Source: Bacteroidaceae bacterium (GTDB lineage: Bacteria > Bacteroidota > Bacteroidia > Bacteroidales > Bacteroidaceae). From it: a stretch of 64,000 nucleotides of DNA. The notes under the pieces are model-generated. The model did not search any database. It was not told the DNA's origin and saw nothing but the letters and a program-made list of their open reading frames with translations. This document shows, in pieces, positions 11,076 to 47,108 of this stretch (positions are counted from its first letter, which is position 1; each line of letters begins with the position of its first letter). The position numbers and the translations under genes were made by a program. Location of the stretch: assembly GCA_017458585.1 (NCBI GenBank), contig JAFTAJ010000007.1, positions 1 to 64,000 on the forward strand, in the 5' to 3' direction.

Positions 11076-11123
11076 GTTCCGAACGATATAAGAATCATAG
11101 TCAGTTTTGCTTATAATGACGTT

Positions 11124-11158
11124 GGAGTCCGGCCATTCGTGGTCGGGCTCCTTCTTTA
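11124..11158 (+). terminator. Rho-independent terminator after the carboxyltransferase
   Basis: GGAGTCCGGCC and GGTCGGGCTCC pair (two G-U wobbles) around ATTCGT, followed by TTCTTTATT. It lies 48 bp after the stop. Confidence 0.75.
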
Positions 11159-11757
11159 TTAGTGCGCCCCAGCGCATCGCGACCTCCCAGATACAAACGC
11201 CCATCTCCCCGCGGCAAGCACCCATCTCGCTGAGACAAAGGCCCATCTCGCAGCATCTTTCTCCGTGAAAAAATTGACAAAGGCCGAGAAGAAATCTTCA
11301 AAAAGCGAGAAGAAATAAAAAAAGAGCGTGGAAAAACAAATTGAATGCCCATTTCGTTTTAGCCGAATGCCCATTCGATTAAAAGCGAATGGGCATTCCG
11401 TTTGCGTCTTGACGCTGTTTATTTTTCTCCGCTCAGTTTTTTAAAAATTCCGCACGCTGTTTTCCGATTTCTGTACGGAGATATCTCAAATCTGCACGGA
11501 GATAATTAAAATCCGTGCGGACTTATTTCAATTCCGCACGGAAATATTCTGTGGTTGGTTGCGTTATCAATTGTCCTTTTAGATGTTTGCACGCCTCTAA
11601 TACGTACAAGTAATCCTATGAAAGAAGGCAAATAATAATAACTGATATAATGTTGTATTGCATACCAATTGTTTATGTATTAAAGCAGGAATAATGGTGT
11701 CTATGTTTTTTTAGCAAAAAAATAGTGAGGAAATACGTGTTATATTTAAAAGAATAA
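11159..11757. repeat. Non-coding stretch holding a 21-bp-phased degenerate array (about 11179-11545)
   Basis: Landmark words recur at 21-bp steps with a rare 22: CCCATCT at 11200, 11221, 11242; CGTG/CGAG-GAAA words at 11264, 11285, 11306, 11327; AATGCCCATT or AATGGGCATT at 11344, 11366, 11388; CCGC at 11429, 11450; ACGG/CGG at 11476, 11497, 11518, 11539. The centre is the AATGGGCATT palindrome group; T-rich arms run outward on both strands. Translation outward in either arm gives 7-residue repeats, a necessary result of 21-bp spacing. From 11546 to 11757 I see only AT-rich DNA. Confidence 0.8.
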
Positions 11758-12094: not shown

Positions 12095-12367
12095 ATGAAA
12101 AGCAAAGGAACTGCGTTGATTTTGTGTTGTATGGGCTTTGTTTGCGTTGCAGGTTTACATCGTTTTTACCTGGGTAAAGTTGGATCAGGAATACTTTATC
12201 TGTTTACTTTAGGTTTTTTCTTTATTGGTACGTTTGCAGATCTTTTTTCTATCGGAACAATGGTAGATGTTGCAAATACTCAGAAGAAGCTAAATCAGAT
12301 TGTTGACATGAGTGTTGCTACGGCAGCAAATAATATGGCAGCATCATCAGCAAGACAGAATAATTAG
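12095..12367 (+). CDS. TM2 domain membrane protein
   Basis: 90 aa. The TM2 domain is clear: a first hydrophobic segment (LILCCMGFVCVAGLHRFYLG), the GxHRFYLGKxGxG turn, and a second segment (LYLFTLGFFFIGTFADLFSI). It ends in a polar tail. TM2 proteins are inner-membrane proteins of unknown role. The base composition is more AT-rich than neighbours and codon use differs, suggesting acquisition. A strong terminator follows. Confidence 0.85.
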   Translation: MKSKGTALILCCMGFVCVAGLHRFYLGKVGSGILYLFTLGFFFIGTFADLFSIGTMVDVANTQKKLNQIVDMSVATAANNMAASSARQNN

Positions 12368-33036: not shown

Positions 33037-33324
33037 TTATTTTCCCAGCAGTTCAGAATGACTGCCGGTGTTGAGCATAATTAAAACAAGCTCTTGTTCG
33101 TATTGTTTCCAGATAAGCAACCAGTCTGGCCGGATATGGCACTCCCACTGACCTTCGCGGTCTCCGTAAAGACGGTGAGCACGATACCTTTCTTCAAGGG
33201 TATTGCCATTAAGCAATTTGGCAATAACGGCCCAAAGCTCGTCAAGTGGAAGGCCGCGTTTCTTGCATCTCTTCAGGTCGCGCTTAAACTGACCAGTGAC
33301 GCGTAGTTCGTACTTTGTATTCAT
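33037..33324 (-). CDS. YafQ-family mRNA interferase toxin
   Basis: 95 aa RelE-superfamily toxin. The end is diagnostic: HRLYGDREGQWECHIRPDWLLIWK, then LIMLNTGSHSELLGK, matching YafQ (ECHI-PDWLL, GSHSELF), with the catalytic His residues present. It cleaves ribosome-bound mRNA in characterised relatives. It overlaps the upstream antitoxin gene by 4 bp (ATGA), the normal antitoxin-first order. Confidence 0.92.
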   Translation of the reverse strand: MNTKYELRVTGQFKRDLKRCKKRGLPLDELWAVIAKLLNGNTLEERYRAHRLYGDREGQWECHIRPDWLLIWKQYEQELVLIMLNTGSHSELLGK

Positions 33325-33578
33325 CCCTCGATTTCTTTCTTCAAGTCATCAAGACTTTCATACTTATACACACGCCCTTCAGCCAAGTCACGCATTGACT
33401 GCTCATAGGGCGTGAGTTTAGTTCGCTTTGGGAGAGTAACCTTTGTCACTCCTTTCATCATTCCGATGGCCTTCTTCAGGTCTTTGGCAAATGATGCGTT
33501 CTCCAGCTCAATAAGCATTTGAGTGGGAGCAAGTGAAACAGTGTTTGTCTTCATTTTCATAATATTTTTCGTTTTCAA
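33321..33578 (-). CDS. Antitoxin of the YafQ-type pair
   Basis: 85 aa. No clear family match, but the size, position and coupling to the toxin gene identify it. The N-terminus has a strand-like MKTNTVSLAP segment and a helix (AKDLKKAIGMMKGV). The C-terminus (AEGRVYKYESLDDLKKEI) resembles the toxin-wrapping tails of RelB/DinJ antitoxins. Internal Mets at residues 7 and 9 are alternative starts. Confidence 0.75.
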   Translation of the reverse strand: MKTKNIMKMKTNTVSLAPTQMLIELENASFAKDLKKAIGMMKGVTKVTLPKRTKLTPYEQSMRDLAEGRVYKYESLDDLKKEIEG

Positions 33579-34010
33579 TCTGCGAAGTTACGACAATTTG
33601 GCGGAAATAAGGGGCAAAGGAAGGGATTTTTTCACGCGTGCGCGAAAAATATTTGTTCGTGCAAACATTATTATATATTGTGAAGAACTCAAAATAGTAC
33701 GAGCAAAAATAAAAAAATAGCGAGGGTAAATGAAAAAAAACCGAGCGGATGAAAACAAAACCCGAGCGGAGGAAAATTTGATGCCCATCGCATTTAATTT
33801 TTGTGGGCATCAATTTTGATTTTCATGGGCATCGCGTTTCAGTCTTCGCGCGTTTTTTCTTCATGAGAAGGCTATTTGTCTGCGTCTTCTCGCTATTTGT
33901 TCTTTTCAGCACGCAACAAAAACTCCGGCCCGCGCTTCGCAGCGCAGGCCGGAGAGCCTTTAGTCATGCATGCTCAATACATAAATCGTGTGAAAAAAGA
34001 TTTATTCTTC
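33579..34010. repeat. Non-coding stretch with 21-bp-phased divergent array (33637-33905)
   Basis: Words recur at exactly 21 bp: CGTG at 33637 and 33658; CGAG at 33700, 33721, 33742, 33763; CCCATCG at 33784; GGGCATC at 33805 and 33827; GCTATTTGT at 33871 and 33892. The GATGCCCATC/GATGGGCATC group is the centre of symmetry. The left arm read on the minus strand and the right arm read on the plus strand are both T-rich with CTCG/TCGCG pulses. A terminator (33916-33956) lies at the right end. Architecture matches the array at 11.2-11.5 kb. Confidence 0.82.
33916..33956 (-). terminator. Rho-independent terminator of the secreted-protein gene
   Basis: Reading the minus strand: CTCCGGCC + TGCGCT, loop, AGCGC + GGGCCGGAG, then TTTTTGTT. 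This is a strong GC hairpin with a U-tract, about 60 bp after the stop at 34011. Confidence 0.9.
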
Positions 34011-43770: not shown

Positions 43771-44688
43771 CTACTTCTTTTTAGTAGTGGTTTTCTTGGT
43801 GGTTGTAGTCTTTTTCTTTGTAGTCGTAGTCTTCTTTTTTGTTGTGGTTGTCTTCTTGGCTACGGGCTGTGGTGCAGGAGGAGTGTAGTACTTGAGTGCT
43901 TCTGGCATCTCCTTCTGTAGTGCAGCGATGCGCTTCTCATCGGAGGGGTGGTCGCTGAAGAACTCGCTCTTCTTATTGCCTCCGAGCTGTGCCATGCGCT
44001 GCCAGAAGGGGATGGCCTGCTGTGGGTCGTAGCCAGCCATGGCAGCGAAGATGAGTCCGAGATGGTCAGCCTCTGTCTCGTTGTCGCGCGAGTATTTGAG
44101 GTTGGCGAAGTTGAATCCTGCACTGGCTACTGAGGTAAGGACGCTGCTGACGGCGCTACTGCCGGTGGCTGTGCCGACCACTGCTCCGCCTATCTTGGTG
44201 GCGTACTGCTGGCGCATCTGCTTGGAGAGTTGCTCTGCAGAGTGCTTGGCTACGGCGTGGGCTATCTCATGGCCGAGGACTATGGCCAGGCTGGCCTCGT
44301 TCTGGGTGACGGGTAGAAGGCCCTCATAAACTACTATCTTGCCGCCGGGCATGCAGAAAGCGTTGACCTGGTTGTCGGCCACGAGGTTAAACTCCCACTG
44401 GAAGTTCTTTATCTCATTGGCGTAGCCGTTGTTGGTGAGAAATGTCTCTACGGCAGTGGCTAGCTTCTGGCCTACGTGCTTAACCAGCATAGTGTTGTTT
44501 TGGTCGGTGGAGGCCTTGGCACCCTTCATGTACTCCTGATACTGCTGGGTACTGAGGCTTAAGATCTGCTCGTCGCTAACGAGCAGGCGTGTCTTGCGCC
44601 CTGTGATGGGCACTGTGTTGGTGGTGCCGCAGGCTACGGTGAGTAGCGTCAGGGCGGCAAAGAAAAGAAGTCTGAATGTCTTTTTCAT
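43771..44688 (-). CDS. M48-family metalloprotease lipoprotein (LoiP/YggG-like)
   Basis: 305 aa. Lipobox LTVAC near residue 20. The HExxH motif is VLGHEIAHAVAKHSAEQL, preceded by NAFCMPGGKIVVYEGLL, with the third zinc ligand in NETEADHLGLIFAAMAGYDP. This is the LoiP/BepA-like group that handles outer-membrane protein quality control. The last 30 residues are a Lys/Thr repeat of 7-residue period (KKTTTTK), encoded by a diverged 21-bp repeat: an unusual basic tail. Confidence 0.92.
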   Translation of the reverse strand: MKKTFRLLFFAALTLLTVACGTTNTVPITGRKTRLLVSDEQILSLSTQQYQEYMKGAKASTDQNNTMLVKHVGQKLATAVETFLTNNGYANEIKNFQWEFNLVADNQVNAFCMPGGKIVVYEGLLPVTQNEASLAIVLGHEIAHAVAKHSAEQLSKQMRQQYATKIGGAVVGTATGSSAVSSVLTSVASAGFNFANLKYSRDNETEADHLGLIFAAMAGYDPQQAIPFWQRMAQLGGNKKSEFFSDHPSDEKRIAALQKEMPEALKYYTPPAPQPVAKKTTTTKKKTTTTKKKTTTTKKTTTKKK

Positions 44689-45656: not shown

Positions 45657-47108
45657 TCAGAATTGGAAATAGATGAACTGCACTTGCTGTCCGCCAAACA
45701 TCAGGCAGGCGAGGAATAATATTATATATATGGCGTAGCGCACGCCCTGCAGTCGCCAGATGCCGCGGTCGGCAAACTGGAAGGGATGGGCGTGGTTGCG
45801 TGTAAGCCATTCGATGGTGAACAGCACTACGATGTATAGCAGCGGCATGCGTGACACGGTGGTGGCCAGGCCGCCCTCCATACTGAACATGCGGCCGAAG
45901 TAGCGGAAGCCGTCGCCCACGGTGGGATTGCGGAAGAACACCTGGCTGAGGATGAACACCACTATGGTGATCAGCCAGTTGATGAATGTTGGCAGATATT
46001 TGGTCAGGGGTTTGGTGGTGACGTTGAAGAATCCGTTCCATGTGCCCCAGGCAATGAAGCTCCAGTTGGGGCCGTGCCACAGTCCGCTGAGCATGTAGAG
46101 TACAAAGACGTTGAAGTAGTGTCTGACGGCGCTGCAGCGGCTACCGCCGAGGGGGAAATAGACATAGTCGCGTAGCCAGCTCATCAGAGTCATGTGCCAG
46201 CGGCGCCAGAACTCGCGAATGGTGGTGGCGAAGAATGGCTTGTTGAAGTTGGTGGAGAGGCGTATGCCGAAGAGACGGGCAGTACCGATGGCCATGTCGG
46301 AGTAGCCTGAGAAGTCGCAATATACCTGCACGGTGAAGGCTAGCAGTCCCACCACGAGGTCTGCCGAGCCGAGCCCCTGGTAATTGGCGAAGGCATAGTC
46401 GGCCACGGGGGCGCAGTTGTCGGCGATGAGCATCTTCTTCATCAGTCCCCAGAGGAAGAGGCGCATGCCGTCCACGGCGTCGTCATATACAAATTTGCGT
46501 GTCCTCGAGAACTGCGGCAGCAGATTGGCTCCGCGCTCTATGGGGCCTGCCACGAGCTGGGGGAAGAAGCACACGAAGCTGAGGAAGTGGCGCAGATTGG
46601 CGGCGGGCTTGAGTTGGCCGCGGTAGATGTCCACCACATAGGCGGTGAGCTGGAAGGTGTAGAAGCTGATGCCTATGGGCAGTATGAGGCGTAGGGTGGG
46701 GATGTCGGCGTTGATATGCAGCAGGCTGAACAGCGCGGCCAGATTGTCGGCAAAGAAGTTGAAGTATTTGAACACTCCGAGTATGCCGATATTGATCAGT
46801 ATCGCAGTGAGCAGCCATCCGTAGCCCGGCCGCCGTTTCCTCTCCTTTCTCCCTATCTCCTTACTCCTAATCTCCTTACTCCTTACTCCTAATCTCCTTA
46901 CTCCTTCTCTCCTAATCTTGTTCCCGATATAATAGTTTACCACACAGGTAGCTATCATGAGCAGCAGGAATCGCCAGTCCCACCAGCCGTAGAAGAAGAA
47001 GCTCGCAGCAATAATAAGTGTGTTCTGCCAGCGCAGTGAGCGCAGGCTCCAGTAGAGTGCGAATACTATGGGCAGAAACAGCAGGAAAGCCAGCGAGTTG
47101 AAGAGCAT
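45657..47108 (-). CDS. MBOAT-family O-acyltransferase (DltB/AlgI-like)
   Basis: 483 aa, about ten membrane segments. Family hallmarks: LPIVFALYWSLRSLRW, LPIGISFYTFQLTAYVVDIYRG, FVCFFPQLVAGPIERG, ANFNKPFFATTIREFWRRWHMTLMSWLRDYVYFPLGG-like, and the catalytic His in YMLSGLWHGPNWSFIAWG. It moves acyl groups across the inner membrane. Residues about 65-89 (RREGVRRLGVRSKEIRSKE), in a cytoplasmic-type basic loop, are encoded by a long 7/8-bp array. Confidence 0.93.
   Translation of the reverse strand: MLFNSLAFLLFLPIVFALYWSLRSLRWQNTLIIAASFFFYGWWDWRFLLLMIATCVVNYYIGNKIRREGVRRLGVRSKEIRSKEIGRKERKRRPGYGWLLTAILINIGILGVFKYFNFFADNLAALFSLLHINADIPTLRLILPIGISFYTFQLTAYVVDIYRGQLKPAANLRHFLSFVCFFPQLVAGPIERGANLLPQFSRTRKFVYDDAVDGMRLFLWGLMKKMLIADNCAPVADYAFANYQGLGSADLVVGLLAFTVQVYCDFSGYSDMAIGTARLFGIRLSTNFNKPFFATTIREFWRRWHMTLMSWLRDYVYFPLGGSRCSAVRHYFNVFVLYMLSGLWHGPNWSFIAWGTWNGFFNVTTKPLTKYLPTFINWLITIVVFILSQVFFRNPTVGDGFRYFGRMFSMEGGLATTVSRMPLLYIVVLFTIEWLTRNHAHPFQFADRGIWRLQGVRYAIYIILFLACLMFGGQQVQFIYFQF
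46841..46913. repeat. 7/8-bp word array inside the MBOAT gene (TACTCCT/AATCTCCT type)
   Basis: About ten units alternating TACTCCT, AATCTCCT and TCTCCTT. It encodes an Arg/Lys/Glu-rich loop in frame. Confidence 0.9.

Follow-up and report, generated by a model that had tools for sequence, protein, structure and literature searches.

21-bp-phased palindromic arrays in a Bacteroidaceae genome and their association with genes for HU/IHF-related proteins

Introduction

The nearest published element that we found in the open-access literature searched is BrickBuilt of Porphyromonas gingivalis, an intergenic MITE/minisatellite with 19 copies in ATCC 33277 (PMC4596501). BrickBuilt resembles the arrays described here in being intergenic and multi-copy, in having tandem units that are lost or gained whole, and in occurring in the same phylum, but it has a period of 23, one conserved unit, and a leader and tail with inverted ends (PMC4596501). 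In the sections of that paper bearing on it, BrickBuilt is without drifting words, mirror-image arms or a link to an HU gene (PMC4596501). REP/BIME elements are intergenic palindromic repeats, some of which lie between convergent genes. The arrays are likewise intergenic palindromes, some of them at convergent gene pairs, but REP/BIME elements are not known to have a 21-bp phase or a cognate gene adjoining the array. Plasmid partition centromeres and iterons are autoregulated multi-site systems present at one or a few loci per replicon. The arrays share with them repeated, helically spaced sites before the gene of the system's own DNA-binding protein, but differ in numbering dozens (an extrapolated figure) and in forming several parallel word classes per chromosome.

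On the protein side, HU is normally seen as a nearly sequence-blind packing protein, and IHF sites are single, short and degenerate. The candidate binders of our arrays are homologs of these DNABII proteins, as judged by PF18291, TIGR01201 and a PDB profile match to IHF. Unlike IHF sites, the arrays have many phased units and paralog-specific words, and unlike IHF and HU, most candidate binders carry a C-terminal, winged-helix-like extension. Clades of the HU-HIG group (PF18291) were reportedly described in silico in 2017. In the open-access literature that we searched, there was no description of such arrays, and the term HU-HIG brought no relevant paper. Here we analyse one such array, array A, in a 64,000-nucleotide stretch of a Bacteroidaceae genome (GCA_017458585.1, contig JAFTAJ010000007.1, positions 1 to 64,000; hereafter the window), together with its relatives elsewhere.

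Results

A first-pass annotation, made from the sequence alone, had described positions 11179–11545 as about 17 periods of 21 bp in which the repeated word drifts, and had named as refutation a lag-21 identity no higher than in dinucleotide-matched shuffles. The phase survived this test. Lag-21 identity was 0.509, twice the 0.255 averaged over 300 shuffles that preserved dinucleotide content (z 10.2), with z scores of 7.6 at lag 42 and 4.6 at lag 63; apart from these three, no lag from 5 to 69 exceeded a z of 4. The drifting word and the number of periods also held when the sequence was written in lines of 21 bp, giving about 17 units from approximately 11194 to 11550, with steps of 22 bp in the core. 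Raw lag-21 identity as high as that of array A also occurs in nine of 2014 other-family windows 367 bp long (the maximum, 1.0, being an exact repeat), yet a multi-lag scanner found no array of this kind there.

None of the parts of array A is assigned a strand. The distal left arm (11194–11256), delimited by the 21-bp layout and supported by the whole-array lag-21 z score, has three units with CCCATCT, and the proximal left arm (11257–11340) has four units with CGTG/CGAG and an A-rich spacer. In the core (11341–11403), three TGCCCA/TGGGCA near-palindromes follow one another at 22-bp steps; they carry the word that we call class 1, and their TGSSCA motifs start at 11346, 11368 and 11390. The proximal right arm (11404–11466) is a T-rich mirror of the proximal left arm, and the distal right arm (11467–11550) has four units around CCGNACGG or its complement, written more generally as C(C/T)G(C/T)ACGG. 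The exact core pattern TGSSCA-N16-TGSSCA-N16-TGSSCA occurs at exactly two places in the window, 11346–11395 and 33782–33831, with 0.00 expected in shuffles.

The annotation had also claimed symmetry around AATGGGCATT. A dyad is indeed present: array A is 68% identical to its own reverse complement over 11260–11481, and a 16-bp inverted repeat occupies 11365–11398 in the core. Because the outer words (CCCATCT on the left, CCGCACGG on the right) are not mirror images, however, the symmetry is confined to the inner part. The further claim that each word lies on the same face of the DNA, 21 bp being two helical turns, is a matter of geometry only and is unmeasured. The claim that no ordinary tandem repeat explains the locus held, and a minisatellite with one unit was rejected: Tandem Repeats Finder returned only three separate period-21 pieces with differing consensus (11184–11253, 11285–11328 and 11475–11548; scores 53–78). 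A CRISPR array was also rejected, since the array is made up of whole 21-bp units whose words change from one end to the other, and not of near-identical repeats separated by unrelated spacers. So was a coding explanation, as the minus-strand ORF at 11101–11352 leaves part of the array uncovered, and steps of 22 bp would break any frame. Tandem Repeats Finder also reported repeats of a different kind, with periods of 15–39, at 43774–43857 and 46841–46918 of the window; these lie outside the array family.

The second core match belongs to array B (about 33620–33930, no strand), which has the architecture and class-1 core of array A, with three TGSSCA units at 22-bp steps in its core (33782–33831). 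Terminator-like hairpins abut both arrays. The first (11124–11151, plus strand; 12 pairs, 8 of them G-C, and a T-rich tail) follows the upstream carboxylase gene and lies directly upstream of array A; the second, resembling an intrinsic terminator (33923–33954, minus strand), abuts array B. About one such hairpin per region of this size is expected by chance for arrays A and B alike (array A region, 1 found versus 1.0 expected in shuffles). Downstream of array A lies a gene for a 90-aa TM2-domain protein (12095–12367, plus strand; PF05154, E = 8e-14), a candidate target. Downstream of array B lies a YafQ-type toxin gene (33037–33324, minus strand; PF15738, E = 2.2e-30), preceded by a small ORF without a Pfam match (33321–33578, minus strand); the two together (33037–33578) are a candidate target.

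The first-pass annotation had missed that these arrays belong to a genome-wide family with several word classes. BLAST with array B found seven further loci in the same genome at E ≤ 1e-7, plus weaker ones. A sequence-only core model (R1), trained on 11 sequences of which ten, array A among them, came from this genome, recovered those ten training loci and one variant on contig C11. Applied to 19 genomes of the genus, this one included, R1 also picked out 12 places in G009, of which one had served for training, no fewer than three strong places in G013, and a variant word in G001. A second scan set the lag pair 21/22 against other lags in the noncoding part of sampled stretches. It gave 19 matches at lag pair 21 in 483 kb of this genome (window included; some arrays give two), 12 in 331 kb from other genomes of the genus (a sample partly chosen for known arrays, in G001, G009 and G013), and 8 in 440 kb of G023, which belongs to a different genus within the family. 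In 205 kb from other families (twelve samples), there was no array at any lag. Best lags in the family genomes cluster at 20–22 and 41–45, with scattered others in this genome. Extrapolating from the sampled stretches, we estimate that this genome holds several dozen arrays.

These arrays share a general anatomy, namely a core of three to five near-palindromes at 22-bp steps and mirror-image flanking arms at 21-bp steps. Their words differ by class: TGCCCA defines class 1, TTCTTAGCTAAGAA class 2, and TCGGCCGA or TCTTCGCCGAGA types class 3, with others in other genomes. For array B, an orthologous array is found in both G013 (L073) and G009 (L074), and for five further loci in one or both of these close relatives. 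When arrays of relatives are aligned, gaps of 21 or 42 bp open within them, alongside gaps of other lengths; L084 and L097, the most similar of the pairs that differ by a gap (94% identity), are exactly one 21-bp gap apart. The exact 21/22-bp phase, the unit-wise gain and loss between relatives, and the existence of several word classes are all directly shown. The whole-unit differences may reflect selection on phase, which is possible but no more than that, as repeat slippage could give the same result.

Arrays also occur as near-copies. Two unrelated loci of this genome with differing flanks, L202 (4493–4848) and L212 (15276–15632), carry arrays that are 88% identical over 357 bp, so that whole arrays can evidently be copied within a genome. 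A 343-bp array segment precedes a short HU-HIG gene in G009 (L242, 2018–2359) and lies elsewhere in this genome (L211, 6528–6868); the HU-HIG orthologue here (L218) is without it. Together, the near-copies and the segment found at different places in two close species indicate that arrays can spread.

A scan of named genomes by DNA pattern extended class-1-like phased palindromes to more distant Bacteroidota (L131, 2783–2867; L126, 4615–4680; L127, 830–930; L134, 6109–6150; L135, 1150–1190). A match in Vreelandella (L132) has no array around it and looks like chance. Two of the distant matches, in Breznakibacter xylanolyticus (L131) and HGW-Bacteroidetes-4 (L135), were picked by DNA pattern alone and lie directly in front of HU-HIG genes, as does the class-1 array on contig C42 of this genome (L217). 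All meet HU-HIG membership (PF18291 scores of 84.3 bits for L131, 90.4 for L135 and 65.2 for L119/L217; curated cut-off 26.2). At L126, L127 and L134, no HU-HIG gene is among the nearest ORFs listed.

We then asked how often arrays lie upstream of HU-HIG genes. An initial survey of six genomes at a score of 0.2 found an array upstream of 18 of 38 HU-HIG genes versus 9 of 611 control genes. Two gene sets were then scored by a fixed criterion (450 bp upstream, score 0.15, best lag 20–22), with HU-HIG proteins counted as extended if they had 55 aa or more of C-terminal extension and did not exceed 280 aa in total length. In the first set, an array was present upstream of 22/29 extended HU-HIG genes, 3/36 other HU-HIG matches and 16/615 ordinary genes (extended versus ordinary, p = 8e-25). 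This set contains orthologs (L217/L233/L234 and L220/L252), so the count of 22 is not fully independent, and seven of the 29 extended genes have no array by the criterion. A hold-out set, built from 27 further genomes of the family by taking the best HU-HIG locus of each, gave the same picture, with an array at 6 of 10 extended genes versus none of the 17 remaining HU-HIG genes (p = 7e-4). No array was present at any of 26 HU genes taken from other families of the class (28 loci were given, 2 of which were dropped for short upstream sequence); these were nearly all ordinary HU, full-length HU-HIG being rare outside the family in that draw. L242, noted above, is a short HU-HIG gene with an array, which sits on the segment mobile between close species. 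Arrays are thus strongly associated with HU-HIG genes bearing a winged-helix-like C-terminal extension.

That resemblance to a winged helix rests on profile similarity. Searched against structures, the N-terminal part of the protein profile matches IHF/HU (E = 1.2e-10) and the C-terminal part a transcription regulator (PDB 2d1h, E = 3e-4), and the extension of L245 matches HTH_11 above the cut-off. The candidate binders also match TIGR01201. Structure prediction of short HU-HIG proteins (A3, two sequences) reached a pLDDT of 41 and was not used. This genome has 13 PF18291 matches, 11 of them marked above the cut-off; G060, another genome of the family, shows a striking expansion to 29 matches, many of which score nearly alike and lie in frames of about 140 aa.

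The five HU-HIG genes of this genome with arrays (L217, L219, L220, L221 and L224) have five different upstream words. Of 26 other arrays in the genome, 15 match one of these HU-upstream arrays with a local score of at least 60, against a null maximum of 32 (eight match L217, three L219, three L221 and one L220). The pairing of word and paralog is therefore shown for 15 of 26 arrays. The remaining 11, array A included, cannot be assigned to a paralog of this genome by local score: array A scores at best 26 (L224), and 24 to L217, and so does not exceed the null maximum of 30. Its class-1 assignment rests on the core pattern and on a model that it helped to train. Across 24 gene–array pairs, protein similarity and array similarity are correlated (rho 0.32, permutation p = 5e-4); for pairs from different genomes only, the correlation is weak (rho 0.16). 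Among 18 extended proteins, it is carried by the HU part (partial correlation 0.22) and not by the winged-helix-like C-terminal part (0.02). The sequence TAACTTTG, which we take to be the Bacteroidota-type −7 element, lies inside the array in L219, L221 and L238, and just beyond it in L217. Autoregulation is the natural reading of arrays in a gene's own promoter, inferred from position, and is not a result.

At loci without HU genes, placement differs by class. All nine class-1 arrays lie upstream of at least one gene and none between convergent genes, whereas five of six class-3 arrays lie between convergent genes (5/6 versus 0/9, Fisher p = 0.002). Class-1 neighbours include genes for lysyl- and leucyl-tRNA synthetase, QueC, MraZ, an acyltransferase, the YafQ toxin operon (array B) and the TM2-domain protein (array A). 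The class-3 arrays of this genome examined include L199, L202, L206, L208 and L212; class-3 neighbours were checked by Pfam, and one flanking ORF, in L202, had no match. Longest-ORF calls proved misleading at two loci: at L116 they suggested an orientation other than that of the downstream gene, a plus-strand MraZ, and at L197 an antisense ORF overlies the HU-HIG gene. Since class 1 lies upstream of genes and class 3 mostly between convergent ones, the classes likely do different work.

Discussion

Our results favour a model in which an HU-HIG protein, a relative of HU and IHF, docks on duplex DNA at the many sites of array A, and in which such arrays are autoregulated and paralog-specific. 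We consider this model likely, although binding is inferred and there are no binding, footprint or expression data. The suggestion in the first-pass annotation that a nucleoid protein might be involved, to be sought by ChIP, gains support from the link between arrays and HU/IHF-like genes; here too, binding remains an inference. The cognate paralog of array A is most probably L217, which is proposed because an array with the class-1 word lies in its own promoter region; the alignment of array A to the L217 array falls below the null maximum, and binding by L217 is inferred.

In mechanistic terms, the dimer of each paralog would bind its own word, nucleating on the core palindromes, and further dimers would line up outward across the arms on the same helix face. 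Such an assembly would cover 200–400 bp; both the binding and the cooperativity are inferred. At the paralog's own promoter, the resulting nucleoprotein block would repress the paralog, giving autoregulation, a repression guessed from position. Elsewhere, it may act as a regulatory or insulating block that marks operon boundaries, with insulation likewise inferred.

The strongest alternative is that another regulator, which also controls HU-HIG genes, binds the arrays and HU-HIG does not. In its favour, HU-HIG binding has not been shown, many loci without HU genes carry arrays, and 11 of 26 arrays are unmatched to a paralog of the genome. However, the words differ from one HU-HIG paralog to the next, whereas one common regulator would give one word, and word similarity tracks protein similarity. 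We therefore regard this alternative as unlikely. LytTR and AraC-type regulators have direct-repeat sites spaced about 21 bp apart; these candidates were set aside once the HU-HIG link emerged, without a test of those families.

A second possibility is that the arrays are mobile or selfish minisatellites, MITE-like in the manner of BrickBuilt, that arose by spread and slippage and have no protein-binding role. The gain and loss of whole units between relatives, the near-identity of the L202 and L212 arrays, and the occurrence of the 343-bp segment at different places in close species would all fit. Nonetheless, the arrays have no fixed ends, since their distal arms differ between loci; the period stays at 21/22 while the words differ completely across classes; words persist where spacers diverge, as judged by eye; and arrays are associated with extended HU-HIG genes. 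This explanation is thus very unlikely. A BrickBuilt-type MITE in particular was rejected because the period is 21/22 and not 23, and because arrays of the same class within this genome match in the core and inner arms only.

A structured RNA, in which a transcript of the array folds into a long hairpin, can be all but ruled out. Folding energies are low (z −5.7 for array A and −3.9 for array B), and outer core units covary slightly (0.743 versus 0.679, p = 0.004), but low folding energy follows from the dyad alone. In a comparison of 17 class-1 arrays, the two arms of one array mirror each other no better than arms of different arrays do (identity 0.466 versus 0.480, p = 0.82); gapped arm scores in the same arrays are about 11 versus a shuffled baseline of 4.8. 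The lack of covariation between the arms of an array argues for recognition of a dyad in duplex DNA and not for a hairpin RNA. Rfam, searched at the gathering score over the window and seven array loci, returned only tRNA and no match at array A. Intrinsic curvature from phased A-tracts, with no particular protein reader, is virtually excluded as well: A/T content does have a period of 20.5–21 and a weaker peak near 10.5–11, but the classes keep specific palindromic words that curvature alone would not need.

The docking model, which we prefer, also admits a bolder form, in which several orthogonal nucleoid-protein layers operate side by side in Bacteroidaceae. Every HU-HIG paralog with the extension would have a private, 21-bp-phased palindromic code, an autoregulating array before its gene and its own intergenic blocks; certain codes would be used at promoters, others where convergent genes end. 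We think that this form is as likely to be wrong as right.

Arrays and proteins form predicted pairs, which makes the docking model directly testable, and orthogonal protein–array pairs might be of use as tools. If the model is true, HU relatives with their own words and long phased arrays would add a new layer to chromosome organisation and gene control in bacteria that abound in the gut and rumen. The HU-HIG family would thereby gain a function.
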